From the NCBI GenBank assembly GCA_028704415.1, contig JAQWFM010000021.1, positions 1 to 35,345 on the forward strand: a stretch of 35,345 bases of DNA. Reading direction: 5' to 3'. Made by a program: the position numbers and the translations under genes. The DNA comes from Oscillospiraceae bacterium. GTDB lineage: Bacteria; Bacillota; Clostridia; Saccharofermentanales; Fastidiosipilaceae. This document shows, in pieces, positions 6,023 through 22,881 of the stretch; the stretch's first letter is position 1, and each line of letters starts with the position of its first letter. The notes beneath the pieces were generated by a model. The model was given only the letters and a program-made list of their open reading frames with translations, was not told the origin of the DNA and did not search any database.

Positions 6023-6051
6023 TTGCTCCCCCATATCGCCTGTGATAAAAT
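6023..6051 (+). promoter_or_regulatory. Predicted sigma-A promoter of the hyp-hydrogenase operon
   Basis: TTGCTC (6023-6028), a 17-base spacer and TAAAAT (6046-6051) form a good vegetative promoter with a weak -35. The transcript would begin near 6058, about 155 bases before hypA. No comparable promoter is visible between the terminator at 6131-6170 and hypA. Confidence 0.55.
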
Positions 6052-6080
6052 ATATTTGTTTGACAAGACGTGCAGGCCTC

Positions 6081-6102
6081 TCTCTCCCAGGCTTAGGAGA
6101 GA
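6081..6102 (+). other. 5' leader hairpin of the hyp transcript
   Basis: TCTCTCC (6081-6087) pairs with GGAGAGA (6096-6102) around an 8-base loop. It lies between the predicted transcript start and the leader terminator and may be part of an attenuator or ligand-binding fold. Confidence 0.4.
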
Positions 6103-6130
6103 CTCACTCGCATATATACCATAAAAAGGC

Positions 6131-6170
6131 GCTGGTACCGGCTGTTTAGCCCTGGTACCGCGGCTTTTTT
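6131..6170 (+). terminator. Strong intrinsic terminator or attenuator in the hyp leader
   Basis: GGTACC (6134-6139) followed by GGCT pairs with AGCC (6148-6151) and GGTACC (6154-6159), leaving a GTTT loop and a two-base bulge. GCGGC and six T (6165-6170) follow. Hairpin plus T tract is a textbook intrinsic terminator. It lies downstream of the only good promoter and 42 bases before hypA. It either ends the upstream ABC transcript or acts as a conditional terminator of the hyp operon. Confidence 0.7.
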
Positions 6171-6212
6171 GTTATAGCGCCAGGCCAGGGTCAACTACAG
6201 GGGGCAGTCGGA

Positions 6213-6560
6213 ATGCATGAGGCATCACTGGCCGCAAACGTGCTGAAGATTGTCAGCCGGGCGGCGGCAGGTAAGGAGAGCCGGGTACGGCAGATTACGG
6301 TTTCAGTCGGTCAACTGGCCGGCGTCATGCCGGACGCTTTGCTTTTTGCTTTTGAAGCGCTGAAAAAGCAGACCTTACTGACCTCAGCTACGCTTAAACT
6401 GGAAAAAGAGCCAGTGACTGCCTGCTGTGAGGATTGCGGTCATGAGTATCAGCCGCAGGCTTTCCCTTATACGTGTCCGATTTGTCAGAGTCATGTTTTC
6501 AGGATTACCAATGGCGAAGCCGTCACGGTAAAACGGATGGAAATTAAAAAAGGAGACTAA
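6213..6560 (+). CDS. hypA: Hydrogenase nickel-insertion protein HypA
   Basis: HypA (115 residues, normal length) carries nickel to the hydrogenase large subunit together with HypB. The N-terminal Met-His-Glu (MHEASL) is the family's nickel-binding site. A zinc site is formed by two CxxC pairs in the second half (CCEDCG and TCPICQ). The ATG at 6213 follows an AGGGGG ribosome site with eight-base spacing, and this start is required to place His at position 2. It is the first gene of a long co-directional block of maturation and hydrogenase genes. hypB begins two bases after its stop. Confidence 0.97.
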   Translation: MHEASLAANVLKIVSRAAAGKESRVRQITVSVGQLAGVMPDALLFAFEALKKQTLLTSATLKLEKEPVTACCEDCGHEYQPQAFPYTCPICQSHVFRITNGEAVTVKRMEIKKGD

Positions 6561-6562: not shown

Positions 6563-7249
6563 ATGTGCAAAGCTCATCACCATGTGGTGGAGGAAATTGA
6601 TCTGGATTGCGTGGTACAGGAAGAAGATATTAAACATTCGGAACAGCTCAAGGCCAGTTTTCGGGCTGCGGGGGTGCGGGCCGTGGGCTTGCTGGGCTCG
6701 CCTGGCTCAGGCAAAACCACGCTGCTGGAAACGCTGGTCCCGCGCCTCATGAAAAAGCGCCGGGTAGCTGTAATTGAAGGGGATCTGGCCACGGATAACG
6801 ATGCCCGCCGGATCCAGGCAGCCGGTGCGCCGGCGGTGGAACTTAACACCGATGGCGCCTGCCATCTGGATGCCAGTATGGTGGAAAAAGCTTTTGCACA
6901 GTTGCCGGAGCCTAAGCCGGAGTTACTGCTGATTGAAAATGTGGGTAATCTGGTTTGCCCGGTGGATTTTCCGGTGGGTGAAGAGCTGCGCCTGGCCGTC
7001 ATCAGTGCGGCCGAAGGTGAAGACAAGCCCCTCAAATACCCGGCTGCGGTTCTGCGGACGGAAGGCGTCATTATCAGCAAGACCGATCTGGCACCTTATG
7101 TGCATGTCGATCCTCACAAAATGGCCGCATATGTAAAGACCATGAATCCGCGGTCCCGCGTGTTCTTTTCTCATTTTGACGCGACCGGTCAGTTGGCGAT
7201 TGAGGCTGCCGACGGCGGCAGCAACCTGGAGGACTGGCTGATCGGATGA
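6563..7249 (+). CDS. hypB: Hydrogenase nickel-incorporation GTPase HypB
   Basis: HypB (228 residues) is a SIMIBI-class GTPase that hands nickel to HypA and the apo-hydrogenase. The P-loop GSPGSGKT is at 45-52. The switch region follows (EGDLATDNDA), then the metal-binding segment with ENVGNLVCPVDF, and the NKXD-type motif appears as SKTDL. The N-terminus is short, with only MCKAHHH as a possible metal ligand. It lacks the long His-rich tail that some species use for nickel storage. A GGAG ribosome site precedes the ATG. The stop overlaps the hypF start by four bases (ATGA), indicating translational coupling. Confidence 0.97.
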   Translation: MCKAHHHVVEEIDLDCVVQEEDIKHSEQLKASFRAAGVRAVGLLGSPGSGKTTLLETLVPRLMKKRRVAVIEGDLATDNDARRIQAAGAPAVELNTDGACHLDASMVEKAFAQLPEPKPELLLIENVGNLVCPVDFPVGEELRLAVISAAEGEDKPLKYPAAVLRTEGVIISKTDLAPYVHVDPHKMAAYVKTMNPRSRVFFSHFDATGQLAIEAADGGSNLEDWLIG

Positions 7250-9576
7250 AACGGCTGGCAGCCGACATTCAGGGCATTGTTCAGGGGGTGGGCTTCCGTC
7301 CCTTTGTAGCACGTGAGGCCGTGCAGCTGGGCCTGACCGGCTTAGTCCGTAATACGCCGTCCGGCGTTGAACTGGAGTGCGAGGGACCGGCTGCGGCCTG
7401 TTTGGCGCTGCTGCGCCAGATTAAACAAAATCCGCCTCCCGGCGCGGTGCTGTTTTCCCTGGAATACCGGGAGCTGGCGGTGCAAGGTGATCAGACTTTC
7501 CGGATCCTCAGCTCTGACCAGGGCACACCGGCCGCGGCTGTTTCGCCTGATTTAGGCATTTGCCCCGACTGTGCGCGCGAGCTATTTGACCCTGCAGATC
7601 GCCGTTACCGCTATCCTTTCATTAATTGCACGGCTTGCGGCCCCCGCTTTACCATTTTGAAACAGGTGCCTTATGACCGGGCTAACACGACTATGGCAGA
7701 TTTTATTATGTGTCCGGATTGTGCTGCTGAATATCAGGATCCGCACAGCCGGCGCTTTCATGCACAGCCTGACGCCTGTGCTGTCTGTGGTCCGGTTTTA
7801 ACGTGGCTTGAAGGTGCAGATCAAAGCCAGAACCAGGTTATAGAGCATTTTGAAGCGGCTATTCGCGCCGGCAAGATTGTTGCGGTCAAAGGTCTGGGCG
7901 GCTTTAATCTGGCTTGCGATGCTCAAAATGAATTGGCTGTACGTCAGCTGCGCCAGGTAAAACATCGTTATGCCAAACCTTTGGCGGTCATGGTGCGTGA
8001 TCTGGCTCAAGCCAGGACGATTTGTGAGCTTGACCCGGCAGAAGCGCAGGAACTGGAGAGCGCCAGGCGCCCGATTATACTGCTGAAAAAAACCAGCTTT
8101 TGCCAAGTGGCTCGCTCAGTCGCGCCGGATACTAAGCGCTTGGGGGTGATGCTGGCTTATACGCCGCTGCATTTATTACTGCTGGAGCATTTACCGCCTT
8201 TGGTGATGACCAGCGCTAACGTGTCAGACCAGCCCATGTATTACCAGGACAAAGACTTAGCAAAAGTGAGGCAGCTGTGTCAGGCGGTGGTTACGCATAA
8301 CCGGCCCATTCTGCGGCGGGTGGATGATTCAGTCTGCGTCTTTGCGGCCGGCCAGCGCCGCTTGCTGCGCCGCGCTCGCGGCTTTGCGCCGGCGCCCATA
8401 CCGGTTAAGCTGCCCCCTCAGGAAGATGCTAAAGTTAGTCAGGCTATGGACCCTCGGTCGGCTTGCGGCCTGCTGGCTCCGCAGGCAAGTCCGGAAATCC
8501 TGGCTTTGGGTGCGCAGCAAAAGAACAGCTTTTGCTTTTTGAAGCAGGGCTTGGCCTATTTGTCCGCTCATATTGGGGATTTGGAGGATGAAGCCACGCT
8601 CACCTTCTTACACCATGAGATTCCGGCTTTCCTGAACCTGTTTGGTGGTCACCCCCGGATTCTGGTCACGGATGAACACCCGGATTATGCGTCCGTGCGG
8701 CTGGGTAAGCTATATGCCCGCCAGCACCCGGAAATTCGCTTGCTGACGGTCCAGCACCATCACGCGCATTTTGCGTCGGTTCTGGCTGAGCATGGTTTGA
8801 CCCGGGCGGTAGGCCTGATTTTTGACGGTACCGGTTATGGATCCGACGGACTCATCTGGGGCGGGGAGTGTTTGGCCGGGACCGCCGCGCACAGCCGGCG
8901 ACTGGCCAGGCTGCGCCCCCTGCGCCTGCCCGGCGCGGATGCCGCGGTGCGTGAGCCCTGGCGGACGGCCATGAGTGCCGTGGCAGATGCCTGCGGGAAA
9001 CAGGAAGCGCTGGCCTTGTTTGGCCAGCATCCCGGAGCGGCTAACTTACTGGCTTTGTGCCGTCGCGGCCAGCTGGCGCCATTATCCAGTGGCATGGGCC
9101 GGCTGTTTGATGTCTTTGCGGTCCTGGCCGGTTTACCAGAGCAGGTATCCTATGAAGGCCAGGATGCGGCTTGCCTGGAACAGCTTTGTGAAGCAGATGC
9201 GGCGGGCAGTTATGAGTTTGTATGGGGACAGGGGCCGGAAGGTTTAGTTGAATTTGACTGGCGCGTCGCAGTCAGACAGGCGCTAAAGGACCGTAAACAG
9301 GGCGTGCGGCCAGGGGTGATGGCTCAGCGCTTTCACCGGGCCGTGACTCGCCTGGTTCGCGATTGTGCGCAACGGTATTCTGAATGGCCGGCGGTGGTCT
9401 TGTCTGGCGGTGTATTTCAGAATGTTCACCTGCTGGAAAGCTGTCTGGCAGGCTTGACCCAGGACGGGCGCCGGGTTTATACCAATGAACTGGTGCCGGC
9501 CAATGACGGGGGGATCAGTTATGGTCAGGCGGCCACCGCCTGGGCCAGACTGAAGGAGGAAACAGCATGTGTTTAG
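7246..9576 (+). CDS. hypF: Carbamoyltransferase HypF (cyanide ligand synthesis)
   Basis: HypF (776 residues, full length) uses carbamoyl phosphate and ATP to carbamoylate the C-terminal Cys of HypE, the first step to the cyanide ligands of the Fe site. Domains in order: acylphosphatase-like (1-90, with GIVQGVGFRPF), two zinc fingers with CxxC-X18-CxxC spacing (Cys 106/109/128/131 and 156/159/178/181), YrdC-like (about 200-390), and a Kae1-like domain with the metal-binding HHHAH at 504-508. All parts are intact. It is coupled to hypB by a four-base overlap and to hypC by a ten-base overlap. Placing hypF between hypB and hypC is a common Firmicute variation. Confidence 0.97.
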   Translation: MKRLAADIQGIVQGVGFRPFVAREAVQLGLTGLVRNTPSGVELECEGPAAACLALLRQIKQNPPPGAVLFSLEYRELAVQGDQTFRILSSDQGTPAAAVSPDLGICPDCARELFDPADRRYRYPFINCTACGPRFTILKQVPYDRANTTMADFIMCPDCAAEYQDPHSRRFHAQPDACAVCGPVLTWLEGADQSQNQVIEHFEAAIRAGKIVAVKGLGGFNLACDAQNELAVRQLRQVKHRYAKPLAVMVRDLAQARTICELDPAEAQELESARRPIILLKKTSFCQVARSVAPDTKRLGVMLAYTPLHLLLLEHLPPLVMTSANVSDQPMYYQDKDLAKVRQLCQAVVTHNRPILRRVDDSVCVFAAGQRRLLRRARGFAPAPIPVKLPPQEDAKVSQAMDPRSACGLLAPQASPEILALGAQQKNSFCFLKQGLAYLSAHIGDLEDEATLTFLHHEIPAFLNLFGGHPRILVTDEHPDYASVRLGKLYARQHPEIRLLTVQHHHAHFASVLAEHGLTRAVGLIFDGTGYGSDGLIWGGECLAGTAAHSRRLARLRPLRLPGADAAVREPWRTAMSAVADACGKQEALALFGQHPGAANLLALCRRGQLAPLSSGMGRLFDVFAVLAGLPEQVSYEGQDAACLEQLCEADAAGSYEFVWGQGPEGLVEFDWRVAVRQALKDRKQGVRPGVMAQRFHRAVTRLVRDCAQRYSEWPAVVLSGGVFQNVHLLESCLAGLTQDGRRVYTNELVPANDGGISYGQAATAWARLKEETACV

Positions 9577-9791
9577 CTATTCCAGGTAAAGTAGCAGCGA
9601 TCAATGCACAGCAGGGTACGATAGACTACGGCGGAGTCACAAGGCAGGCAGATATGACTTTACTGCCCCAAGCTCAAGTCGGTGATATGGTGATGGTTCA
9701 CGCTGGTTTTGCCATTGCGGTGATGGACCAGGCGGCCGGCGAAGAACTGATGCGACTGACAGCGGAGCTGGATTCATATGGAAAAGCGTGA
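9567..9791 (+). CDS. hypC: Hydrogenase assembly chaperone HypC
   Basis: HypC (74 residues) is the small OB-fold chaperone that works with HypD in building the Fe(CN)2CO group and then holds the large-subunit precursor. The essential N-terminal Cys is at position 2 in MCLAIPGKV, the family signature. The middle and end (VGDMVMVHAGFAIAVMD) match the usual conserved core. An AGGAGG ribosome site inside the end of hypF precedes the start. The stop overlaps hypD by 14 bases, consistent with one translationally coupled unit and with HypC-HypD complex formation. Confidence 0.97.
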   Translation: MCLAIPGKVAAINAQQGTIDYGGVTRQADMTLLPQAQVGDMVMVHAGFAIAVMDQAAGEELMRLTAELDSYGKA

Positions 9792-11007
9792 GATGGTGGC
9801 CCGGCTGGCGGATATCCTTGCAGAGACTAGCCGGGGTTTACCGGATTTTGCGGTTATGGAAGTCTGCGGCACTCATACTCACGCGATTGCGCGCTATGGT
9901 CTGAGTGCGCTGCTGCCCTCTAATATCCGCCTGGTATCCGGGCCGGGTTGCCCGGTTTGTGTCACCGCGGATGAAACCATTGCCCAGGCGCTGACGCTGG
10001 CCCGGCAGCCGGCTACCTGCGTCTGCAGTTTTGGCGATATGCTGCGTGTCCCTGTCCGGGTGCAGTATCCGGAAGGCGAGACCGGATTAGATAGCTTGTT
10101 GCGTGAGCGCGGGTTGGGCCGGGATGTGCGGCTGGTGGTTTCCCCGCTGGATGTCCTGCGTCTGGCTCAGGCAGAGCCAGACCGTCAGTTTGTCTGGTTT
10201 GCGGTGGGCTTTGAAACGACCGCGCCTGCTACAGCCGTGCTGCTGCGGCAGGCCCGTGCGGCCGGGGTGCCTAACCTCAAGGTGCTTTGTGCGCATAAAA
10301 CCATGCCGGCGGCACTGCAGGCGTTGCTGGATCCAGCAGACTCAAAGCCTGCTAAGCAGCCTATCCGGGGTTTGCTCTGCCCCGGGCATGTGGCGGCGAT
10401 TACCGGCGCAAATGCTTTTCAGTTTGTCCCCCGACAGTTGGGGCTGGCCGCGGCAATCTCAGGCTTTGAGCCGGAAGACATCCTGGCGGCGTTGGTAGAG
10501 CTGAGCCGGCAACTGCACCGTGGTCAGCCTGGCCTGCGCAATATGTATCCGGCGGTGGTACGGCCAAATGGTAACCTGGCGGCTCAGGGGTTACTTAGTC
10601 AAATATTTCAGCCCAGTACAGCCACCTGGCGCGGCCTGGGTGAGATACCTGCCAGCGGCCTGAGCCTGCGACCGGCATGGCAGGAATTTGATGCGTTAAA
10701 CGGCAGTCTCTCCCCGGATCCGGCGGCAACCGTCTGTCCTGTGGCCGAGACCAAACCAAGCGCCTGCCATTGCGGACCGGTCCTGCGCGGAGACGAAAGC
10801 CCGCTTGATTGTCCGTTATTTATGCGTGCTTGCACTGAAGCTAATCCCCGCGGCCCTTGTATGGTTTCTTCTGAAGGCGCCTGCGCGGCGGCCAGCCGTT
10901 ATGGGACCGGCGGCGCTGCCGTTCGCCTCAAGGAACACTATAGAGCTGGATCTGGCGCGGTGTCAGGTCATAATGAATTTAGGAAGGAACCGGATATATA
11001 TGGATGA
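9778..11007 (+). CDS. hypD: Fe-S protein HypD (Fe(CN)2CO assembly)
   Basis: HypD (409 residues) is the scaffold on which the Fe(CN)2CO moiety is assembled, with HypC. The essential Cys30 in CGTHTH and Cys58/Cys61 in GPGCPVC are present. The C-terminal Cys set for the [4Fe-4S] cluster is also there (CHCGPVLRG, LDCPLF, CTEANPRGPCMVSSEG). The protein is about 35-40 residues longer than usual because the frame continues after the conserved EGACAA end through the hypE ribosome site and into the first codons of hypE. This tail has no recognisable motif and may be an effect of a lost stop codon. Function should be intact. Confidence 0.96.
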   Translation: MEKREMVARLADILAETSRGLPDFAVMEVCGTHTHAIARYGLSALLPSNIRLVSGPGCPVCVTADETIAQALTLARQPATCVCSFGDMLRVPVRVQYPEGETGLDSLLRERGLGRDVRLVVSPLDVLRLAQAEPDRQFVWFAVGFETTAPATAVLLRQARAAGVPNLKVLCAHKTMPAALQALLDPADSKPAKQPIRGLLCPGHVAAITGANAFQFVPRQLGLAAAISGFEPEDILAALVELSRQLHRGQPGLRNMYPAVVRPNGNLAAQGLLSQIFQPSTATWRGLGEIPASGLSLRPAWQEFDALNGSLSPDPAATVCPVAETKPSACHCGPVLRGDESPLDCPLFMRACTEANPRGPCMVSSEGACAAASRYGTGGAAVRLKEHYRAGSGAVSGHNEFRKEPDIYG

Positions 11008-12022
11008 AGAAATCAGTCTGGCCCATGGCGCTGGAGGCGAAGCCTACCGTCAGATGGTGCAGGAGATTTTTATTCCCGGTTATGGCAGCCCTGAGCTAAG
11101 TCAGCTGGGAGACTCCGCTGTGTTGCCAGGGCCGGGCCAAAGCGGGGAACTGGCTTTTACCACCGACAGCTTTGTGGTCTGGCCTTTGTTTTTCCCCGGC
11201 GGCGATGTTGGCAGCCTGGCTGTGTCTGGTACGGTCAATGATTTGGCGGTGGCCGCCAGCGTACCGCGCTATCTCAGTGTGGCCATGATTATTGAAGCAG
11301 GATTTCCTACAAAGACCCTGCAGCGTATCGCCGCTTCAATTGCAGCCACAGCCCAAAAAGCCGGGGTGCGGGTGGTAACCGGCGACACTAAAGTGGTGGA
11401 GCACGGACGGGCCGATGGGATCTATATCACTACCTCCGGGGTGGGTACCTTTGACGGGGGCTGGCGTCGGCCTGACCAACAGGTGCGAGACGGAGACGTC
11501 TTGCTGGTTTCAGGCCCGCTGGCCAGTCACGGGGTGGCGGTTATGGCTGCCCGGGAACAGCTGGAATTTAATCCCCCCCTGCAAAGTGATGCCCGCCCGC
11601 TGGCCGGCTTGATCAGGTCCCTGTTAGCCAGCGGTTTGTCCGTACATGCCATGCGGGATCCCACCCGCGGCGGTTTAGGCGCAACCTTATGTGAATGGGC
11701 TGATAGCTCAGGGTTATGTCTGACCGTGCAAGAAGACGCGCTGCCGGTGAGGGCGGACGTCCGTGCGGCTTGCGCTTTACTGGGGCTGGATCCGCTGTTT
11801 TGCGCTAATGAAGGCGTGGTAGTATTGGCGCTGCCTGCGGCTCAGGCAGCAGCGGCGCTGGCCTGCCTGAAGGCGCATCCGGATGGCCAGGCAGCGGCGA
11901 TTGTGGGTCAGGTGACGGCGGGCCAGCCGGGCCTGCCCGGTCATGTTTCCCTGGATACCGGCTATGGAACCCTGCGCCGGGTGACGCTGCCTGCAGGAGA
12001 CATTCTTCCGCGGATTTGCTGA
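11000..12022 (+). CDS. hypE: Carbamoyl dehydratase HypE
   Basis: HypE (340 residues) dehydrates the carbamoyl group placed on its C-terminal Cys by HypF into a thiocyanate, the source of the CN ligands. The start was set at the ATG at 11000 because AGGAAGG precedes it and the protein then begins with the typical DEEISLAHGAGGEAYRQ segment. Reading further upstream only adds hypD-overlapping sequence. It belongs to the PurM/ThiL-like ATP-binding family. The glycine-rich and Asp-rich nucleotide motifs (GDSAVL, TVNDLAV, GDTKVVE) are visible. The protein ends in PRIC, keeping the essential terminal Cys340. It overlaps the hypD stop by eight bases. Confidence 0.97.
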   Translation: MDEEISLAHGAGGEAYRQMVQEIFIPGYGSPELSQLGDSAVLPGPGQSGELAFTTDSFVVWPLFFPGGDVGSLAVSGTVNDLAVAASVPRYLSVAMIIEAGFPTKTLQRIAASIAATAQKAGVRVVTGDTKVVEHGRADGIYITTSGVGTFDGGWRRPDQQVRDGDVLLVSGPLASHGVAVMAAREQLEFNPPLQSDARPLAGLIRSLLASGLSVHAMRDPTRGGLGATLCEWADSSGLCLTVQEDALPVRADVRAACALLGLDPLFCANEGVVVLALPAAQAAAALACLKAHPDGQAAAIVGQVTAGQPGLPGHVSLDTGYGTLRRVTLPAGDILPRIC

Positions 12023-12101
12023 AAACTGCAGCCGCTTGGCGCATGATGACCTGCGACAAAAAAGAACTGTCTGCATTACGGATAGAAATGAGGACAAGCA
12101 C

Positions 12102-13508
12102 ATGGTTTTGTTAATCTGTGTGGGCACGCCGCTCTTAGGCGCGTTCCTGCTCCCGGCTCTGGGGCATTGGTCGGAAAAGGCCCGCCGATGGGGCTCCCTG
12201 TTAATGGTACTCACGGCTTTAGTCTGTGCGGCTATCGCAACGGTGGATCTTTTGCACGGACAAGCGGACGCGGTCAGACTGCAGCTGCCCCTGGGTCTTT
12301 CAATGGGCCTGCGGATGGACGCCCTGGCGGCTTTTATGGCTCTGACCGCTTGTACCGTGAGCGCGGTGATTGTGGTGTATTCGTTTGGTTATATGAAGAC
12401 TTATACTCACCTGAATGAATATTATCTCATGATTACCTTTTTTATCGGCGCCATGCTGGGCCTGGTGATGTCCACCAGTTTGCTGCAAATGTATATCTTC
12501 TGGGAATTTTCTTCCTTCTGCTGCTGGCGCCTTATCGGGTTCTACCGGGATGACCTGTCCGTAAAACGGGCAGATAAAGCCTTTATGGTGACCGTCTTGG
12601 GCGCGCTGGCTATGCTGGTCGGTTTTACCGGTATCTATGGCGCCACCGGCACGTTTGATCTGGACGCGCTCCAAGGCAGTCAGATCCCGGGCTGGTCCAC
12701 AGGGCTTATCCTGGTCGGTATCCTGTCCAAATCCGCTACCTTCCCTCTGCATAACTGGCTGCCGGACGCAGGGGTTGCGCCTTCCCCGGTTACGTCCCTG
12801 CTGCACGCCGCCGTTCTGGTGAAAATCGGTGTGTTTGCTTATGCCAGGCTTTTTGTGCTGACTTTCAGCATTGATCCGGTTATTACCGTAATCGTCCCCG
12901 TTATCGCCGCGGTCTCTGCGTTGGTTTCCGCCGGTTGCGCCATGATGGCGACAGATATAAAGCGGGTGGTGGCTTATTCAACCATCAGTCAGCTGGCTTT
13001 TATTCTGCTGGGGCTCAGCAGCGGATCCCGGATTGGCTTTGCAGGCGGCTTGCTGTACATCCTGGCGCACAGCATGGCGAAAGCCGGGCTCTTCCTTTGC
13101 TGCGGTATTGTGGAACATAATCTTCATACTAAAGACATGACTAAAATGGGGGGGCTGGCCAGGACCATGCCCAAAACCGCGGTGGCGTTTGCGTTCTGTG
13201 CTTTATCCGTCATGGGGATCCCACCGTTTTCTGGTTACTTTGCCAAGTACCTGGTCATTTCCGGCGAAGTCGATGCCGGCCATCCCGTTATTGCGGCGGT
13301 GTTTATATTAGGCGCAGTGATGACGATTATGTACCTGGTCCGGCTTTTTGCCAAAGTCTTTCTGGGGCCATGCCGGAACCCGGAAAGCCGTGAGGGCAAT
13401 GGTCAGATGGTTGGCTCTGTCCTGACTCTGGCAGTGCTGTCCTTACTGCTGGGCTTGCTGATCTTCCTGCCTTCCGGGCTGATTACTCTGGCAATGGAGG
13501 CGATGTGA
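12102..13508 (+). CDS. Complex I-like hydrogenase, antiporter subunit 1 (NuoL/M, HyfB family)
   Basis: This 468-residue polytopic protein belongs to the Mrp/NuoL-M-N proton-translocating family and is about the size of MrpD or NuoN. The start at 12102 (MVLLICVG) was chosen for its GAGGA ribosome site; an in-frame ATG at 12036 has none. Key half-channel residues are visible: TM5 Glu135 (FWEFSSF), Lys in ILSKSATFPLHNWLPDA, Lys in AVLVKIG, Lys in HSMAKAG and Lys in GYFAKYL. Two adjacent Cys (140-141) follow the TM5 Glu. It lies 79 bases after hypE with no terminator between, so maturation and structural genes are probably cotranscribed. It would form the distal membrane arm. Confidence 0.93.
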   Translation: MVLLICVGTPLLGAFLLPALGHWSEKARRWGSLLMVLTALVCAAIATVDLLHGQADAVRLQLPLGLSMGLRMDALAAFMALTACTVSAVIVVYSFGYMKTYTHLNEYYLMITFFIGAMLGLVMSTSLLQMYIFWEFSSFCCWRLIGFYRDDLSVKRADKAFMVTVLGALAMLVGFTGIYGATGTFDLDALQGSQIPGWSTGLILVGILSKSATFPLHNWLPDAGVAPSPVTSLLHAAVLVKIGVFAYARLFVLTFSIDPVITVIVPVIAAVSALVSAGCAMMATDIKRVVAYSTISQLAFILLGLSSGSRIGFAGGLLYILAHSMAKAGLFLCCGIVEHNLHTKDMTKMGGLARTMPKTAVAFAFCALSVMGIPPFSGYFAKYLVISGEVDAGHPVIAAVFILGAVMTIMYLVRLFAKVFLGPCRNPESREGNGQMVGSVLTLAVLSLLLGLLIFLPSGLITLAMEAM

Positions 13509-13509
13509 G

Positions 13510-15426
13510 ATGCTGGCAATTTTGATTTTACTCCCTGTAGCGGCCGGTTGCTTTTTATGGCTGGCGCGCCGGCACTATGTGATATCACAGCTTGGCGGTC
13601 TGCTTTTTGCGCTGCTGAACCTGGCCGCGGCGCTGCGGCTTTATCAAGGGGGTCAATTTAGCGTGATCCTGCCGGTGACCGTGCCGGGCTTCAGCCTGAC
13701 GCTGCGGGCAGACCAGGTGGCGGAGCTTTTTTTGCTGTTTGCCGCGGCCATGGTGCCGTTGCTACTGATCTATAGTATTGGTTTTGTTCGGGATAAAAAA
13801 TGGGGCGGGCTGTACTTGCTTTATTTATGCTTGAGCATTGCTATGGTCAATGGCGCGCTGCTGTCAGATGATTTGGGCCTGCTGCTCTTTTTTTGGGAAG
13901 GTTTGCTAGGTACCTTGTTTGGTATGCTGTTGCTGCGCAATCGGGAAAATCCCCGCGCCGCGGTAAAAGCACTGACCGTGTCCGGCCTGGCGGATCTGAT
14001 CCTGATGCTGGGAATCGCAGCCTCCGTTTATAGTGCGCATACCACCTTGATGAGCGGGATGCAGCAACTGCCGGTAACCGGCGTCGGTGCGCTGGGCTGC
14101 GCGGCCTTATTGATGGGCGCGTTAGGCAAAGCCGGCTGTATGCCGTTTCATGCCTGGATCCCGCTGGCGGCAGAAGATGCTCCCACCCCGTTTTTGGCCG
14201 CTTTCCCCGGCTCTCTGGAAAAAATCCTGGGTATTTATTTAGCTGCGCGGGTAGTAACGGAGTTATATGCGGTAAAACCTGGTTCAGCGGTCAGTGTGAC
14301 AGTCATGATTTTTGGCGCCGCAACGATTCTGCTGGCAGGGGCTATGGCCTTGGCCCAGACAGACTTGAAACGACTGCTGGCCTATTCGGCTGTTTCCCAG
14401 GTGGGCTACATGGTATTAGGGCTGGGCTCCGGACTGGCTGTGGGGGTGGCCGGCGCGGTTTTCCATTTATTTAACCATGTGTTATATAAAACCGGCCTGT
14501 TCATGACTGCCGGTGCAGTGGAGGCCGCGGCCGGTACGACCGATCTGCGGCAACTGGGTGGCCTGCGCCATCGCTTACCCCTGACTACGGGCAGTGTGGT
14601 GATTTTTAGTCTGGCCATTACCGGTTTTCCCGGCTTAAATGGCTTCTATTCCAAGGAACTGGTTTTTGATGCCGCGCTGGAGGTAAATGTGATTTTTTAT
14701 CTGGCGGCTTTGCTGGGCGCGGTGATTACCGCCATTTATATCTTAAAAATGCTTCACAGTGTCTTTTGGGGTCAGCCGGCTGCCGCGGAAATAAATGCCG
14801 ATCAGCGGCAGGGCGCGCAAAACCAACCGGCTGCCGCTGCTGTCAATCCAGCCGCGGACCAACTGCCGACGGCCCGCCAGGCCAAGGTGACCGGCCGGCA
14901 AGGAGAAGCCTGGGCGCTGGCTATACCGCAACTGCTGCTGGCCCTGGCCTGCGTGGGCTTTGCGGTAGGAGAAAGCCCGGTGGTTGACGGCTTGATTGGC
15001 CAGGCTTTTAACCTGCAGGAACGTTTTGGTGGCTTTCCCAAGTCTGCGGCGTTAGTCATTATCTCCTGCCTGGCTTTGGCTTTGGCCGGGGCAGATCACC
15101 TGTATGGCTGGCGCCGGGAGACCGCCGCCAGTCGCGCCACGGACCATTTGACCGGGCTACCGGGTCTACGTCAGCTATACGTCGCAGCGCAAAGGGGCTG
15201 TTTTGATCTGTATGTCTGGCTGACTGCCGGAGTGCGGGCTTTTTCACGCCTTTGCCAATGGATCGAAAACGGGGTGACCTGGTTTTATGACATTGGCGTG
15301 CCCCGGACCATTATGGGAGCAGGTAATTGGTTATCCGCATTGGACAATGGCAGCCTGGCCCGTTATCTGGCTTTGGCTATTGTGGGTATGCTGGCAGTCG
15401 GCCTGATATTCATACTGATGTTGTAA
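13510..15426 (+). CDS. Complex I-like hydrogenase, antiporter subunit 2 (NuoL-like, long)
   Basis: This 638-residue protein has the length and architecture of NuoL. It starts with an antiporter core of about 14 helices containing the TM5 Glu (FFWEGLL), the Lys-bearing broken-helix segments (GALGKAGCMPFHAW, SLEKILG, HVLYKTG) and the TM12 Lys (FYSKEL). Next comes a Gln/Ala/Pro-rich linker of some 40 residues at about 420-465, more transmembrane helices, and a C-terminal stretch with an amphipathic segment and a last helix. In NuoL such a stretch forms the lateral helix HL along the arm. That correspondence is inference. The gene begins one base after the previous stop. Confidence 0.93.
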   Translation: MLAILILLPVAAGCFLWLARRHYVISQLGGLLFALLNLAAALRLYQGGQFSVILPVTVPGFSLTLRADQVAELFLLFAAAMVPLLLIYSIGFVRDKKWGGLYLLYLCLSIAMVNGALLSDDLGLLLFFWEGLLGTLFGMLLLRNRENPRAAVKALTVSGLADLILMLGIAASVYSAHTTLMSGMQQLPVTGVGALGCAALLMGALGKAGCMPFHAWIPLAAEDAPTPFLAAFPGSLEKILGIYLAARVVTELYAVKPGSAVSVTVMIFGAATILLAGAMALAQTDLKRLLAYSAVSQVGYMVLGLGSGLAVGVAGAVFHLFNHVLYKTGLFMTAGAVEAAAGTTDLRQLGGLRHRLPLTTGSVVIFSLAITGFPGLNGFYSKELVFDAALEVNVIFYLAALLGAVITAIYILKMLHSVFWGQPAAAEINADQRQGAQNQPAAAAVNPAADQLPTARQAKVTGRQGEAWALAIPQLLLALACVGFAVGESPVVDGLIGQAFNLQERFGGFPKSAALVIISCLALALAGADHLYGWRRETAASRATDHLTGLPGLRQLYVAAQRGCFDLYVWLTAGVRAFSRLCQWIENGVTWFYDIGVPRTIMGAGNWLSALDNGSLARYLALAIVGMLAVGLIFILML

Positions 15427-15441
15427 GGGGGAGGGATCATC

Positions 15442-16914
15442 ATGACAATACTTTCAATCTGCGCGCATGGTTTTATCTATGGCCCGATCCTGGTCGTACT
15501 CATCTACAACTTATTTAACCATGAGTTTGCCCGTAAACATTTTTTCTGGTTTGCCGGTACGGGGGCCGTTTGGCAAATCCTGGCCGCGATTGGGGGCTTT
15601 ACCGCCCTGAACCAAAACGGCCAGACCAGCTATGCCTTTGGCGCGTTCTGGGACATCAGGCTTGCTGGCGCCGCTTTCTTTGAACTCAATGCGACCCGCT
15701 TTCTGCTGTTACTGATTGTAGGTTTGGTGGCGCTGATTTCCGTCCTGGTGGCGCATCAGACGGTGGATTTCAACCGTTCATCCTATACGAATCTGCTGAT
15801 GATTTTAGTCCTGGGCATGAATGGCATGCTGCTGGTAACGGACCTCTTTTCGCTATATGTCTTTTTGGAGGTGACCGGATTATGCTGCTTCATCATGATT
15901 GCGATGTTTCGCTCCAGGGCTGATTTGGAAGGCTCCTTCAAATATCTGATTCTGTCTGAGCTGTCCGGTATCTTTATCCTCACTGCCATCGCCTTTTTGA
16001 TGATGAAAACCGGCTCCCTGCGTTATGCTGATCTGGCCGGTCTGGGCCAGCGGATTTCAGCCGGCAGTGGCCAGCTGGAAGATCTGCTGGTTTATGCGGC
16101 CTTGATCCTGTTGATTTCCGGCTTTGCCATTAAAACCGGCGTGGTCCCGTTTCACAGCTGGCTGCCGGATGCCTACCAGAGTGCGGATACCGCTGTTTCT
16201 ATCCTGTTGTCCGGCGCGGTCAACAAAGTGGCAGGGGTTTACGGACTTATGATAGTCATGCAGTTATTTGGTGATGTTGCGCCGGTGGGCCCGTCCTTAG
16301 CTGCGGTGGGTATTATCTCAATTATTATTGGCGCTCTGCTGGCCGTGCGCCAGCCGCAATACAAACGCGTGGTGGCGTATTCCAGTGTGTCCCAGATGGG
16401 TTATATTTTACTGGCGCTTTCTACCGGGACCACCCTGGGTTTGGTGGCGGCGCTGGCGCATATCCTTAGCCACACTGCCTTTAAATCAACGCTCTTTACC
16501 AATGCGGCGGCTTTACAGGAGCAAACCGGAACCCTGGAGCTCAAGGATTTAGGCGGCCTTGAAAATCAAATGCCGGTAACCGCCTTTACGTCCATAATTG
16601 CTTTTCTTTCCACCGCAGGCATACCCCCTACGGCAGGCTTCTGGTCCAAGATCCTGATTATCCTGGCGCTCTGGCAGGCAGGCTCGCCTGTCCTGGCAGG
16701 GGTTGCCCTGGTGGCGGGGATCCTCAGCAGCGCCTACCTGATTCGCCTGCAGCGCACGGTGTTCTTTGGCCAGACCCGCCCGGAACTGGCAAAGGTCAGG
16801 GAGGTCCGGGGCAGTGTGCTGACCGCAGAAGTCCTGCTGACGGTAATTACTCTGGGTTTGGGACTGCTGTATCCGTATATTCTGCTGCTGCTGCATGCCG
16901 GCGGCATCTTGTGA
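15442..16914 (+). CDS. Complex I-like hydrogenase, antiporter subunit 3 (NuoN/M-like)
   Basis: This is the third Mrp/NuoL-M-N family subunit, 490 residues, all membrane. Visible key residues are TM5 Glu143 (FLEVTGL), Lys in FAIKTGVVPFHSWLPDA, Lys in GAVNKVAG, Lys in TAFKSTL and Lys in GFWSKIL. Two adjacent Cys (148-149) follow the TM5 Glu at the same offset as in antiporter subunit 1. A GGGGAGGG ribosome site precedes the ATG. Three such subunits per complex match Complex I and Hyf, and exceed Ech (one) and Hyc (fewer), which implies a high proton-pumping stoichiometry. Whether it corresponds to NuoN or NuoM needs a tree. Confidence 0.92.
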   Translation: MTILSICAHGFIYGPILVVLIYNLFNHEFARKHFFWFAGTGAVWQILAAIGGFTALNQNGQTSYAFGAFWDIRLAGAAFFELNATRFLLLLIVGLVALISVLVAHQTVDFNRSSYTNLLMILVLGMNGMLLVTDLFSLYVFLEVTGLCCFIMIAMFRSRADLEGSFKYLILSELSGIFILTAIAFLMMKTGSLRYADLAGLGQRISAGSGQLEDLLVYAALILLISGFAIKTGVVPFHSWLPDAYQSADTAVSILLSGAVNKVAGVYGLMIVMQLFGDVAPVGPSLAAVGIISIIIGALLAVRQPQYKRVVAYSSVSQMGYILLALSTGTTLGLVAALAHILSHTAFKSTLFTNAAALQEQTGTLELKDLGGLENQMPVTAFTSIIAFLSTAGIPPTAGFWSKILIILALWQAGSPVLAGVALVAGILSSAYLIRLQRTVFFGQTRPELAKVREVRGSVLTAEVLLTVITLGLGLLYPYILLLLHAGGIL

Positions 16915-16927
16915 GGAGGGTTTTCAG

Positions 16928-17428
16928 GTGAATGTCATTGTTTATCTCGGTGCTGGTTTGATGTTGCTCTTTGGGGTATACGCCGTCATGGAGCACAGTA
17001 TCCTGCGCGCGGCCATTGGCCTGGCGCTTTCCAGCGCGTCGCTGTCAGTGTTGCTTTATGTATTAGGCGCGCATCTGGCGGCGCTGTTTGAATTGTCCGT
17101 TTGTTCCGGGCTGGTCACGGTGATCTTCATTGCGGGTATCAGCCTGTCGCATTCCCCCAAAATGGAGATCCAGAAAGAATACCGGGATAAAGAACGGAAT
17201 CGCCTGCTGCCCCTGGTCCTGATCGGCGTCGGCTTGCTGCTGGTGATACTGGCTCTGACCTTAAATTTACAAACCCCGGAGCTGGCTCAGCTTACGCAGG
17301 ATGACGATGTGCGCGATGTGCTGTGGGGAAACCGGCAGGCTGATATCTGGGGACAGATAGCGTTGATTTTGTGTGGCGGCGTAGCGGTGGCGGTGCTGTT
17401 TAGGGAAGAAAGGCGGGAGAAAAAGTGA
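16928..17428 (+). CDS. Complex I-like hydrogenase, NuoJ-like membrane subunit
   Basis: This 166-residue membrane protein resembles NuoJ (NADH dehydrogenase subunit 6). It has about four helices at the start (VYLGAGLMLLFGVYAV to VTVIFIAGISL), a charged loop (QKEYRDKERNRLL), one more helix, a soluble segment and a final helix. The GTG at 16928 was taken as the start because AGGAGGG lies seven bases before it. An ATG at 16895 would sit inside the preceding gene. In Complex I, NuoJ carries the pi-bulge helix linking the Q site to the pumps. It overlaps the next gene by four bases. Identification rests on topology, size and position. Confidence 0.8.
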   Translation: MNVIVYLGAGLMLLFGVYAVMEHSILRAAIGLALSSASLSVLLYVLGAHLAALFELSVCSGLVTVIFIAGISLSHSPKMEIQKEYRDKERNRLLPLVLIGVGLLLVILALTLNLQTPELAQLTQDDDVRDVLWGNRQADIWGQIALILCGGVAVAVLFREERREKK

Positions 17429-17730
17429 ACTTAGTCATAGTTTTACTGATTATTGGTTTACTCATGATTGTAGCTGGCTGCTGGTGCCTGATGCGGACAT
17501 TTCATTTGCTGAAAATGACGATCGGTATCGAAGTGGCGATGAAAGCCGTGACCCTGTTTTTAGTCTTAGCCGGCCGGATCAGCGGTAAAATAGCTTTATC
17601 GGAGACCTTTGTTATCACCGTGATGGTGGCTGAAGTCATTGTGGCGGTGGTTGGCACCGGAACGGCTGTGGGCTTGTTCCGGAAGTACGGCAGTATGGAT
17701 GTCCGTAATCTCAAGCAGCTGAAAGGGTGA
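17425..17730 (+). CDS. Complex I-like hydrogenase, NuoK-like subunit
   Basis: This 101-residue protein has three helices, the usual NuoK/MrpC/HyfE-core size. Glu36 in the second helix (TIGIEVAMK) and Glu70 in the third (VMVAEVIVAVV) correspond to the two conserved membrane Glu of NuoK (E36 and E72 in E. coli) that carry protons between the Q module and the antiporters. Their retention suggests a working coupling path. It starts in a four-base overlap with the NuoJ-like gene, the gene order seen in nuo operons. Confidence 0.88.
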   Translation: MNLVIVLLIIGLLMIVAGCWCLMRTFHLLKMTIGIEVAMKAVTLFLVLAGRISGKIALSETFVITVMVAEVIVAVVGTGTAVGLFRKYGSMDVRNLKQLKG

Positions 17731-17734
17731 TAAG

Positions 17735-18061
17735 ATGAGCGCTATACTATATTCGCCGCCCGTGGTCTTTGGCTTGTTTTTGCTGCTCTTTTTGCTGCTG
17801 CTGCGGCTGTTGGATCGTTATGCGGTGCATGGCGGCACCGGGGGAGCACATGCGCTGGATCCTTATGCCTGCGGCCAGCGGGATTTTGAAAATTATGTCA
17901 ACCCGGACTACACCCAGTTTTTCCGTTATGCTTTTGTATTTACGGTCATGCATGTGGTGGCATTAGTTATTGCTACAGCTTCGGTCTCCGGCCTGACTGT
18001 ATTGCCGCTGATTTATGTCGCTGCCAGCATCCTGTCTTTAGCGATTATTTTCCGCAAGTAG
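17735..18061 (+). CDS. Complex I-like hydrogenase, NuoA-like subunit
   Basis: This 108-residue, three-helix protein carries the NuoA pattern: helix 1, then a loop with YACG (PYECG in NuoA; the Cys lies in the switch loop near the quinone site), then FFRYAFVFTVMHVVAL as helix 2, and helix 3. By eye, the Asp and Glu of the NuoA helix-2 FDxE motif are replaced by His and Val here. NuoA is typical of true Complex I and Fpo. I know of no NuoA in the well-studied Ech, Hyc, Hyf, Mbh or Coo hydrogenases, so its presence beside a hydrogenase large subunit is notable. An 81-base gap without terminator follows. Confidence 0.85.
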   Translation: MSAILYSPPVVFGLFLLLFLLLLRLLDRYAVHGGTGGAHALDPYACGQRDFENYVNPDYTQFFRYAFVFTVMHVVALVIATASVSGLTVLPLIYVAASILSLAIIFRK

Positions 18062-18148
18062 CGCGAACCTGCGCCGGCGGACCTAAACCAGGGAAATGAC
18101 CGGCCTGCCGTTGGCGACCGGCCAGAAACAGAAAGGATTGGCTTGAGT

Positions 18149-18691
18149 ATGGACCTGATTAAAAAGGCGATTGCCTGGGGGAGCCGCAAATCCCCCTGGG
18201 TTATTCACTTTAATGCGGGAGCCTGCAATGGCTGTGATATTGAAGTGGTGGATGCCCTCACGCCACGTTTTGATTTGGAACGGGCCGGCGTGATTAAGCA
18301 GGGCAGCCCCCGGCACGCGGATGTGTTAATCGTAACCGGAGCGGTTACGCTGCAGGTGCGCGACCGCCTGGTGCAAATATATGAACAGATGCCTTCGCCC
18401 AAATTTGTGATTGCAGTCGGCGCCTGCGCCTGCAGTGGCGGCATCTTTAACGGCTGTTACTGCGTCAGCGGCGGGGTCAATACGGTCATCCCGGTGGATG
18501 CCTACGTGCCGGGTTGTGCGGTCAGGCCGGAAACCCTGATTGCCGCGGTGACAAAACTGCTGGATAAAGTGGAGGCACAGACAGCAGCCGCAGACGGCCA
18601 GTTACCGCCTGGCCCGGAGGCTGAACCGACGCCGGCGCCCGCTGCGGCGGCGATAACTGATCAAGACGGAGGTGAGCGGCATGGAAAATGA
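18149..18691 (+). CDS. Complex I-like [NiFe] hydrogenase small subunit (NuoB/HyfI-like)
   Basis: This 180-residue soluble subunit would hold the proximal [4Fe-4S] cluster. The ligands are visible: Cys26 and Cys29 in GACNGCD, a Cys in GACACSGG (93 or 95), and Cys123 in VPGCAVRPE. The CxxC spacing is hydrogenase-like, not the tandem CC of Complex I NuoB. After about residue 140 comes a Pro/Ala-rich tail of about 30 residues (PPGPEAEPTPAPAAAA) not found in ordinary NuoB. An in-frame TTG at 18143 has slightly better spacing to the AAGGA site, so the true start could be two codons earlier. The end overlaps the large-subunit gene by 11 bases. Confidence 0.93.
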   Translation: MDLIKKAIAWGSRKSPWVIHFNAGACNGCDIEVVDALTPRFDLERAGVIKQGSPRHADVLIVTGAVTLQVRDRLVQIYEQMPSPKFVIAVGACACSGGIFNGCYCVSGGVNTVIPVDAYVPGCAVRPETLIAAVTKLLDKVEAQTAAADGQLPPGPEAEPTPAPAAAAITDQDGGERHGK

Positions 18692-20561
18692 ACTGGTGTC
18701 AGCCCTGATCACGCAGTTTCCGGAACTTGAAGGCAAAGTCACGGTGAGTAAGCCGATGCGGGTTTCCGTAGACTGGCTGCCGCAGGACTTGTTCCTGAAG
18801 GTGATTTACTGGCTGCATGATGAACAGAAACTGACCAAAGGCCATAACGTTATCGGGACGGATGAGGGTGAAAATCTAGGCTTCATCTATATGATATCCG
18901 GCCCGGATCAGGTGATCGTCATTCTGCGGACGACCGCGCCAAAGTCAGATCCCCGGGTCCCCAGCCTGAGCGGACTATATAAATCTTTTGTTCTGTTTGA
19001 AAGAGAGCTCTGTGATTTATTTGGCGCGCAGGTAACCGGCCTGCCCTCCGGACCACGCTATCCGCTGCCGGACAACTGGCCTAAGGAGCAATGGCCGCTG
19101 CGCAAAGAGTGGAAACCGGAAAACTTTGACCGACAGACGATGACTTATCATGAGCCCGCCCAGCCTGCGGCGACAACTGCAGATCCGCAGCAAGCGGCAG
19201 TTGAGGCTAAAACGGAAGCGCTGCTAGAGACAGTGGAACTGGGGGAAGAAGCAAAGACGGCTACGGCATATGTCAATCAGCCGCTGCCTGATGCCGCGGC
19301 AGCAAAGCCCCCGGCGCCGGCACATCCGGAGGGGGACAATCTGATCACGGTGCCTATCGGGCCGCAGCATCCGTCGCTGGATGAACCGTCTACCTTTACG
19401 ATTACGCTGGAAGGAGAAAAGGTGGAAGGCGCGGTTATTGGTATTGGCTATAATCACCGCGGTCTGGAAAAAGCCTGCGAAAGCCGTACCTATGTCCAGG
19501 ATCTCTATATCATTGAGCGGGTGTGCGGTATTTGCTCGCATGCGCATACCACCGCCTACTGTATGTGTGTCGAACAGCTGGCGGGTGTAACCGTACCGCC
19601 GCGGGCCGAGTACATCCGTCTGATTGTAGGCGAGATGGAACGGCTGCACAGTCACTTGCTCTGGTTAGGTGTGGCAGGGCACGAAATTGGTTTTGACACG
19701 CTATTTATGATGTCCTGGCGCGACCGCGAACGTGTTTTGGATATTTTGACGGTCCTGGGCGGCAACCGGATTAATTACGGGATTAACTGCCTGGGTGGTG
19801 TGCGCCGGGATATCGACCCGGGACTGGCCCAGGATATCCTGAAGACTATGGATTTCCTGGAAACTGAAATTGAATATTATCTTAAACTGGCGGAAACGGA
19901 CAGTACGCTGGCTGCGCGGCTGGCCGGTGTGGGGGTGCTGTCAAAAGCGGACTGCCTGCTTTATGGCGCCGCCGGACCGGTAGCCCGGGCTGCCGGTATT
20001 GCGGACGATGTCCGTCAGATAGAACCCTATGGCGCTTATCGGGATATCCCGGTCCGGGTGGTTACAGATGATCATGCCGATGTCTTTGGCCGGACCCTGG
20101 TGCGTATTAAGGAAATGCTGGAATCAATCCGGCTGATCCGGGAAGCTTTGCGACTGCTGCCGGAAGGACCGCTCACCGTGCGGGTGCCGCGGAGGATCCC
20201 GGCTGGCGAGGCGATTATAAGAGTTGAAGCTCCCCGGGGAGAGGACCTGCATTATTTGCGCGCCACCGGGACTGACATGCCTGACCGGGTTAGAGTCCGC
20301 GCCCCAACGGAATGCAATTGGCACGGCATGCAGCATATGCTGGAAGGCGGCTATTTGTCGGATGTACCGATCACCATCGCCGCCATTGACCCCTGCTATT
20401 CCTGTACCGACCGGGCTATCTCACTGACCGGACACAGCAGCTTGTCCGGTGAGGTTTTGGATTGGAAACAGCTGCGTGAATACAGCCTGCAATGGTACCG
20501 GCAGCGGGGCGTTGATCCGTCCCGGATTGACGTATCTGACGCCGCTGCCAGGGCGGATTGA
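18681..20561 (+). CDS. Complex I-like [NiFe] hydrogenase large subunit, NuoC-NuoD fusion (HycE/HyfG-like)
   Basis: This 626-residue catalytic subunit would hold the Ni-Fe site. Residues 1-150 are a 30-kDa (NuoC) domain. A Pro/Ala/Glu-rich linker spans about 155-215. The 49-kDa (NuoD) domain starts near PIGPQHPSLDEPSTF. Both nickel-binding motifs are intact: Cys282-Cys285 in RVCGICSHAH and Cys572-Cys575 in DPCYSCTDR. It is therefore a true hydrogenase and not a Complex I subunit or a Cys-less Ehr relative. A 48-residue tail follows Arg578, like the HycE tail that HycI removes after nickel insertion. The ATG at 18681 has an excellent GGAGGTGA site. The fused form is typical of Hyc/Hyf. Confidence 0.96.
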   Translation: MENELVSALITQFPELEGKVTVSKPMRVSVDWLPQDLFLKVIYWLHDEQKLTKGHNVIGTDEGENLGFIYMISGPDQVIVILRTTAPKSDPRVPSLSGLYKSFVLFERELCDLFGAQVTGLPSGPRYPLPDNWPKEQWPLRKEWKPENFDRQTMTYHEPAQPAATTADPQQAAVEAKTEALLETVELGEEAKTATAYVNQPLPDAAAAKPPAPAHPEGDNLITVPIGPQHPSLDEPSTFTITLEGEKVEGAVIGIGYNHRGLEKACESRTYVQDLYIIERVCGICSHAHTTAYCMCVEQLAGVTVPPRAEYIRLIVGEMERLHSHLLWLGVAGHEIGFDTLFMMSWRDRERVLDILTVLGGNRINYGINCLGGVRRDIDPGLAQDILKTMDFLETEIEYYLKLAETDSTLAARLAGVGVLSKADCLLYGAAGPVARAAGIADDVRQIEPYGAYRDIPVRVVTDDHADVFGRTLVRIKEMLESIRLIREALRLLPEGPLTVRVPRRIPAGEAIIRVEAPRGEDLHYLRATGTDMPDRVRVRAPTECNWHGMQHMLEGGYLSDVPITIAAIDPCYSCTDRAISLTGHSSLSGEVLDWKQLREYSLQWYRQRGVDPSRIDVSDAAARAD

Positions 20562-20574
20562 AAGGACCTATGCC

Positions 20575-21519
20575 ATGAGTGTGCTAACCGCCTTGCTTAA
20601 AATACTGATCTTCCCCGGCTTCTTGTTTCTGTCAGCCTATGCGCTGGCACTGCAGTTTTTGGACCGCAAGCTTTATGCCAGGTTACAATCCCGCCAGGGC
20701 CCGCCCTGGTATCAGCCTGTCGCGGATTTCATTAAGCTGATCGGCAAGGAGACCCTGATTCCGGCTCAGGCCAATCAACTCATGTTCCGGATGCTGCCCG
20801 CCTTTTGCCTGGCCGCCATGGCGGTCGCGTTTGTGTACATCCCGGTCTGGGGGCGCGGCGCCATGTTCAGCTTTGAAGGGGATATGATAGTGGTGCTCTA
20901 TTTCCTGGCAGTCCCGCCGCTGGCTTCTTTCCTGGCCGGCTGGTATTCCCGCAGCCTTTTTGCCACCGTGGGGGCCACCCGGACCCTGACCCAGATGTTT
21001 GCATATGAAGTTCCGATGTTTCTGGCCCTGCTGGCTCCGACGCTTTTGTCCGGTTCCTGGTCTGTTTCTGGTAATATGGCGTTTTACGCCACCCACCCGC
21101 TGCTGGTATTGGTCAACTTGCCGGCATTGGTGGTGACGCTGATTGTTTCGCAGTGCAAACTGGAGCGAACCCCCTTTGACGCGCCTGAAGCGGAAACCGA
21201 AATTGTGTCTGGACCTTTAGTAGAGTATGGCGGCCGCTATCTGGCCTTCTTTACGTTTTCTAAAGACTGTGAGCTGGTTGTAGTATTGTCGCTGTTTACC
21301 GCTATGTTCCTGCCGTTTTCTACAGGCATATCCGGGGTGGATTTTTTGCTGTATCTTGTTAAAACTCTGGCGGTGATGGCGGTTTTATGCTTGCTGAGGG
21401 CTACTACGGCGCGCTTGCGCATCAATCAAATCGTGGCCTTTTGCTGGAAATATCTGGCGCCCACCGCCTTATTACAGATCATTCTAAACCTGGTCCTGCG
21501 GGAGGTGTTTTTAATATGA
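20575..21519 (+). CDS. Complex I-like hydrogenase, NuoH/HyfC-like membrane anchor
   Basis: This 314-residue membrane protein of the NuoH/EchB/HyfC family anchors the hydrophilic arm and links the active site to the pumps. About eight helices are visible. Conserved cytoplasmic loops include DRKLYARLQSRQGP-WYQPVADFIKLIGKE and LERTPFDAPEAETEIVSGPLVEYGG, the latter a family hallmark rich in acidic residues. The start at 20575 has AAAGGA upstream; an earlier in-frame ATG lies within the large-subunit gene. The stop overlaps the ferredoxin-like gene by four bases. Confidence 0.94.
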   Translation: MSVLTALLKILIFPGFLFLSAYALALQFLDRKLYARLQSRQGPPWYQPVADFIKLIGKETLIPAQANQLMFRMLPAFCLAAMAVAFVYIPVWGRGAMFSFEGDMIVVLYFLAVPPLASFLAGWYSRSLFATVGATRTLTQMFAYEVPMFLALLAPTLLSGSWSVSGNMAFYATHPLLVLVNLPALVVTLIVSQCKLERTPFDAPEAETEIVSGPLVEYGGRYLAFFTFSKDCELVVVLSLFTAMFLPFSTGISGVDFLLYLVKTLAVMAVLCLLRATTARLRINQIVAFCWKYLAPTALLQIILNLVLREVFLI

Positions 21520-21899
21520 GCATTTTTAAACCTAAGCCTGGCCGGACCCAACCTGGCCGGATTTCCGGGGCGGCAGTCCATAATCTCTTTTCTCACCCTG
21601 CTACCATCAAGTATATTGGGGGAAAATACACGCTGGACAAACGCTGCCGCGGGTTGATTAAATATGACCCGCTGCAATGCATAGGCTGCGGCTTGTGCAT
21701 GAAAGACTGCCCGACTGGCGCCATTACAATTGTGAATAAAGGTACCAAGCAGGATCGTGACATGCATGCGTATCTGGATACGGGCAAGTGTATTTTTTGC
21801 GGTCAGTGTGCGGATACCTGTCCCAAAAAGGATATTGTGGTTACCTCAGAGTCAGATTTGTCCAATTTCTCCCGCGACGGGTTAAAAATAGAATTATGA
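21516..21899 (+). CDS. Complex I-like hydrogenase, NuoI/HyfH-like 2[4Fe-4S] subunit
   Basis: This 127-residue ferredoxin-like subunit has two classic cluster motifs, CIGCGLCMKDCP and CIFCGQCADTCP, in the C-terminal two thirds. They would wire electrons between an external donor or acceptor and the small subunit. The N-terminus (about 45 residues) resembles the membrane-contacting region of NuoI/HyfH. It is the only polyferredoxin-type subunit in the cluster. There is no NuoE/F/G, HyfA or formate dehydrogenase, so soluble ferredoxin is the most likely partner (inference). ATGA overlaps join it to the genes on both sides. Confidence 0.94.
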   Translation: MSIFKPKPGRTQPGRISGAAVHNLFSHPATIKYIGGKYTLDKRCRGLIKYDPLQCIGCGLCMKDCPTGAITIVNKGTKQDRDMHAYLDTGKCIFCGQCADTCPKKDIVVTSESDLSNFSRDGLKIEL

Positions 21900-22435: not shown

Positions 22436-22453
22436 AGATAAGGAGAGCATAAT

Positions 22454-22881
22454 ATGGCTTGTTTTATTGTTCCAACGATTGAGGCGATTATCACGACGGC
22501 CGCCACCCATGCCCTGCGGCGTAAAGAAAAGCTGAAGCCCGGCTGACCCCGGAGACCAGGCCGACTCAAACAACCGGTATCCCGTTTTCCCGTAAACTGG
22601 GCTGGCTGAACAATATGCTTTGGGGCGGCAGTGCCCTGCTGGCCTTTGAGCATATCTGGCATGGCGAAGTAGTGCCCTGGTTCCCCTTCCTGACCGCTGC
22701 AACTGACCCGTCTGACCGGGCTGCCATGCTGCACGAAATGGCGACGGTGGGTGTCAGTATGGCGCTGCTGGTTACTGCAGCCTGGGGCCTGATGCTGCTG
22801 GCAGTCCACGCCCTGGAAAAGCGCGCAGCCAGATCGGCTGACCACAGCCTGGAGGCTTCTAAACAAGGAGGCGTACTATGA
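22454..22881 (+). pseudogene. Small conserved membrane protein, reading frame broken by a 1-base shift
   Basis: The ATG at 22454 has a strong AAGGAG site. It begins MACFIVPTIEAIITT but meets a stop at 22544. The -1 frame is open from 22525 to 22881 and continues with GIPFSRKLGWLNNMLWGGSALLAFEHIWHGEVVPWFPFL. An internal ATG at 22615 has no ribosome site. Adding one A to the AAAA run at 22527-22530 joins the frames into one protein of about 142 residues with two or three helices and a His-containing loop. From memory, intact relatives in anaerobic Firmicutes begin and continue this way. It may be a real mutation, a sequencing error or programmed -1 slippage. It lies 18 bases after hycI and overlaps the next gene by four bases. 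Function unknown. Confidence 0.65.

Follow-up and report, generated by a model that had tools for sequence, protein, structure and literature searches.

A conserved leader with an intrinsic terminator before hypA: a candidate transcription attenuator of a [NiFe] hydrogenase operon in one genus of Fastidiosipilaceae

Attenuators of the general kind considered here are common. In the window, the 35,345-nucleotide stretch of DNA that was analysed (contig JAQWFM010000021.1 of an Oscillospiraceae bacterium), the sequence upstream of hypA has the layout of such an element, with a terminator in the leader between a predicted promoter and the first gene (Table 1). The putative 5′ attenuators with unidentified sensors described by Naville and Gautheret (2010, PMC2965389) likewise consist of a promoter, a structured leader and an intrinsic terminator just before the first gene. 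Their 5′ attenuator terminators averaged −16.5 kcal/mol and their 3′ terminators −20.2 kcal/mol; the terminator found here is more stable than the 5′ average, and the main text of that work gives no hydrogenase or nickel case. In our own literature search, which was not exhaustive, we came upon no account of attenuation at the RNA level for a hyp or [NiFe] hydrogenase operon.

The leader also shares the layout of transcription-terminating riboswitches, in which P1 and P2, with a conserved internal loop between them and a variable tip, precede the terminator, and here too P1 and a possible antiterminator lie on a common strand. Unlike riboswitches, the leader has no Rfam match, an antiterminator that is not above chance and a distribution restricted to one genus. 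In Rfam 15 no family reached the gathering threshold and nothing meaningful appeared up to an E-value of 10, which bears out an earlier note on this DNA in its statement that the leader matches no riboswitch class. The LoaP-controlled dfn/mln leaders (PMC12691694) resemble the present one in that a leader hairpin and then an intrinsic terminator precede a long operon. Finally, the string UGGUACCGCG in the leader resembles a T-box sequence. Unlike in T-box leaders, this string is the 3′ arm of the terminator directly before the U-tract, and with neither a Stem I nor an Rfam match a T-box was rejected.

Table 1. Features of the hypA upstream region and the operon that follows it, in window coordinates (G003, sister species)
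Feature	Position	Strand	Basis or remark
Leader promoter: TTGCTC (6023-6028), 17-base spacer, TAAAAT (6046-6051), extended −10 TG at 6043-6044	6023..6051	+	8/12 consensus; conserved in G003
Perfectly matching stretch, from the −10 region over the transcript start into the 5′ leader	6038..6087	+	50 bases identical in G003
P1 lower stem: GUGC.GG (6070-6073, 6075-6076) with CU.GCAU (6107-6108, 6110-6113)	6070..6113	+	folding; sequence identical in G003
P2 hairpin UCUCUCC/GGAGAGA, arms 6081-6087/6096-6102	6081..6102	+	folding
Intrinsic terminator, GC-rich stem ~6123-6169 and T6 (6165-6170)	6123..6170	+	folding; core conserved in G003
Terminator 5′ arm AGGCGCUGGUAC, possible antiterminator partner of 6070-6079 (GUGCAGGCCU)	6127..6138	+	inferred; not above shuffles
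Gap before hypA, with the hypA ribosome-binding site	6171..6212	+	42 bases; unconserved
hypA, first gene of the operon	6213..6560	+	Pfam HypA 4e-31
hypB, hypF, hypC, hypD, hypE, three antiporter-like subunits	within 6563..23198	+	
NuoK-like, NuoB-like, fused NuoC/D-like [NiFe] large subunit, NuoH-like, NuoI-like	within 6563..23198	+	
HycI-type protease, two small proteins	within 6563..23198	+	

The operon downstream of the leader is ~17 kb long. Its large subunit carries CGIC at residue 285 and DPCYSC around residue 575, the L1/L2 cysteines. Since both nickel-binding motifs are kept in the fused protein, and Nuo-like partners and maturation genes accompany it, the downstream genes are, judged from their sequences, a genuine [NiFe] hydrogenase operon of the group 4 type. 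One protein of 629 aa (18672-20561) combines the NuoC-like and NuoD-like parts; in the nearest relative, G191 (L167), they appear as separate matches with ~45% and 67% identity, the latter over aa 221-623. The two small proteins at the operon end (22615-22881 and 22878-23198) have no Pfam match and are 76-81% identical in the sister species, G003. A MarR-type regulator with two ABC exporter genes flanks the operon on either side, at 1737-5880 (plus strand) and 23184-27234 (minus strand), both facing inward, and a hairpin at 5888-5926, just after the upstream ABC genes, is absent from G003. Farther away on the minus strand (29452-33555), there is a row made up of a methionine synthase-like gene with methyltransferase, pterin and B12 domains, a weak hit for the B12 methionine synthase activation domain, and MTHFR.

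Folding confirmed the leader hairpin that the earlier note had read at 6081-6102, and the promoter that it had placed at 6023-6051 also stood; this is the top match within 5990-6060, and a simple promoter scanner with a cut-off of 9/12 does not list it. The strong hairpin and T6 that the same note placed at 6131-6170 are both present, but the stem is longer than it had given. The U-tract follows directly on a stable GC-rich hairpin of −23.2 kcal/mol (z = −3.5; equalled by none of 200 shuffles), which exceeds in stability the hairpins at all other T-runs of the window (104 in total, both strands included). A stock terminator scan missed it, probably because the stem is interrupted. The same segment is terminator-like on the minus strand also (−20.3 kcal/mol with a T-run). 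Within the leader, P1 encloses P2 and a conserved internal loop (CCUC/CUCA). The fold of the leader alone is unremarkable (z = −1.0), and leader and terminator folded together reach z = −2.8. Between the terminator and hypA we found no convincing promoter: the best promoter-like matches in 6130-6212 are 7/12, the best in G003 are 6/12, and their positions are unrelated, so that none is common to both species, in agreement with the 42 promoterless bases of the earlier note. With no later promoter visible in either species, any hyp transcript that begins at the leader promoter or arrives from the ABC genes has to run on through the terminator; the claim that a promoter-driven hyp transcript has to pass it is upheld.

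Comparison with G003 adds to this. Among 12 family genomes examined, only G003 has this hypA besides the source genome, and it is the only other member of the genus among them. Gene order is the same in both, with two ABC genes, the leader, and hypA onward. Most of the compared proteins have 72-95% identity, and identity at third codon positions is ~50%, which indicates that neutral sites are near saturation. Identity is nevertheless 83-97% by segment across promoter, leader and terminator (97% for 6058-6088, 86% for the promoter, 85% for the terminator), as compared with 40% in the gap after the terminator and 8% between the ABC genes and the promoter. The uninterrupted identity at 6038-6087 is the longest run in the ~1.6 kb compared, coding DNA included. 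Differences fall mainly in loops and linkers, at 5 of 64 paired and 17 of 52 unpaired columns (Fisher P = 0.0008, for two sequences and with the paired set taken from the window's own fold). Conservation of promoter, leader and terminator at near-saturated neutral divergence is strong evidence of selection on them, and by this comparison the leader is a selected, structured RNA.

Differences in length between the two species bear on its nature. The P2 loop, variable in sequence and length, has 8 bases in the window and 7 in G003, where the linker before the terminator is 3 bases shorter and the terminator loop 3 bases longer. Such changes suit RNA better than a DNA operator, and the altered spacing of the P2 arms argues against an operator in particular, so the P2 inverted repeat was judged less likely to be one. 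No compensatory change or covarying pair was found in P1, P2 or the terminator between these two sequences; for P1 this is because its sequence is identical in G003, and in P2 one pair is lost there (U-A to U-U). A leader-peptide attenuator was rejected, as the short frames differ between the species and have no AG-rich site before them.

Searches farther afield returned the genus pair only. A pattern search over the order (188 genomes) gave these two and a chance match inside a coding frame of G035; RNA covariance models over 391 genomes of the class, over the family, over the order and over 398 genomes of the phylum gave nothing but the pair, in samples that overlap and with strict filters in the larger searches. 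The weaker matches to the RNA models that were examined were set aside as chance: they cover just the terminator, fall on a terminator downstream of ftsZ, or lie within coding sequence. A pattern scan of viral contigs yielded an uninformative list of 14-base matches, and a HypA search of genome contigs found distant homologs only. The earlier note had proposed a covariance search of homologous leaders; the comparisons made here gave a near-identical leader in G003, but neither covariation nor a relative outside the genus. In G191 the hyp-hydrogenase operon is fully syntenic, and no leader of this kind precedes hypA; a likely promoter (TTGACA at 3159) directly adjoins the gene. Thus the leader is a genus-level addition and does not belong to the operon as a fixed part.

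The best single explanation, in which our confidence slightly exceeds our doubt, is that the hyp-hydrogenase operon is transcribed with 6052-6170 as its leader, which acts as a genus-restricted transcription attenuator. According to this model, RNA polymerase would start near 6058, a position predicted from the promoter, make the P1/P2 element with its conserved internal loop, and then meet the strong intrinsic terminator, 43 bases ahead of hypA. Under one condition P1 would form and leave the terminator free, and transcription would stop with a short RNA of ~113 nt. Under another, the terminator 5′ arm (6127-6138) would be blocked, whether by the P1 5′ strand (6070-6079) or by a protein that binds, and the operon would be read. 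What the sequences show is the elements themselves, their conservation and the lack of any other visible hyp promoter; regulated termination and the exchange between P1 and antiterminator are what we infer.

Predicted folds leave a P1/antiterminator switch possible. P1 (6070-6076/6107-6113) and the candidate antiterminator (6070-6079/6127-6138) share one strand. Before the terminator 3′ arm is made, the antiterminator state is ~2 kcal/mol better than P1 alone in both species, and folding of the full-length transcript favours P1, P2 and terminator together. When prefixes of the transcript were folded, the antiterminator came out best at several lengths for G003, but not for the window. However, the complementarity between leader and terminator arm is equalled by 43% and 29% of dinucleotide-shuffled leaders, and because it is no better than shuffles we dropped the antiterminator as proof of switching. 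In addition, at −23 kcal/mol the terminator is nearer to the 3′ than to the 5′ type, which weakens the attenuator reading somewhat. The proposal of attenuation in the earlier note is partly supported: it gains from the strong conservation of promoter, leader and terminator and from the lack of a later hyp promoter, and loses from chance-level antiterminator complementarity and a terminator as stable as an ordinary 3′ terminator. In all, we counted for attenuation the conservation, the loop-biased differences, the strongest terminator of the window, the lack of a shared later promoter, the common gene order and the fold energies; against it we counted the complementarity, the lack of compensatory changes, the 3′-like terminator strength, the lack of a separate terminator for the ABC genes, the leaderless G191 and the lack of relatives outside the genus.

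The main rivals to the attenuator are an independent small RNA and a 3′ terminator of the ABC genes. In the former, 6058-6170 would encode a small RNA, complete with promoter and terminator, that lies ahead of hypA by chance, and hyp would be expressed by fixed low readthrough. Such a complete transcription unit of ~113 nt, conserved from the −10 to the terminator, would end in a terminator of just the strength found, that of an ordinary 3′ terminator; its CU-rich stretch might pair with ribosome-binding sites, and the syntenic operon of G191 works without a leader. On the other hand, that stretch is held inside P2, the expression of hyp would rest on leaky passage of the window's strongest terminator, and each of the two genomes known to have the element carries a single copy, located at hypA. 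We regard a small RNA as possible but rather unlikely. The terminator may also serve the ABC genes, as no separate terminator is seen after them and ahead of the leader promoter: G003 has ~78 bases from the ABC stop codon to the start of the leader transcript and no stable hairpin within them, and in the window the intervening hairpin has no T-run. If it mainly ended the MarR-ABC-ABC transcript, hyp would come from unregulated leakage or from a promoter that went unrecognised within the terminator or the gap. But a terminator that simply served the ABC genes would have no use for the conserved promoter and P1/P2, which persist next to the unconserved ABC-promoter stretch (8% identity), and the gap contains no conserved promoter. 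We regard such a role, as the main one, as quite unlikely.

Protein-dependent antitermination of the LoaP, BglG/CAT or ANTAR type acting on P2 is the least probable, and we give it very little credence. It is recommended by the LoaP systems mentioned above, with their pairing of leader hairpin and intrinsic terminator before long operons. Unlike LoaP leaders, P2 has no UNCG loop, and the window's genome encodes a single NusG-type protein, a second (L175, G003:C16:16617-16883) being found in G003 alone; LoaP was rejected on these grounds. BglG/CAT antitermination was rejected likewise, as no CAT_RBD protein was found in either genome with positive controls. The ANTAR search gave no match, but its controls were also silent, so it says little.

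Returning to the attenuator, the near-identity of the leader in the sister species suggests that it is probably a real on/off control. A further reading, unlikely in our estimate, is that the leader represents a novel class of riboswitch or a novel small protein-sensed attenuator, through which nickel, a cofactor intermediate or a redox signal would govern production of the whole [NiFe] hydrogenase and its maturation proteins. At present the leader is a good, well-conserved candidate for an attenuator of known kind, and on the data so far it is confined to a single genus. Should the attenuator model hold, the making of a 17-kb operon that is costly in nickel would hinge on a single small RNA element, whose ligand could be sought directly.
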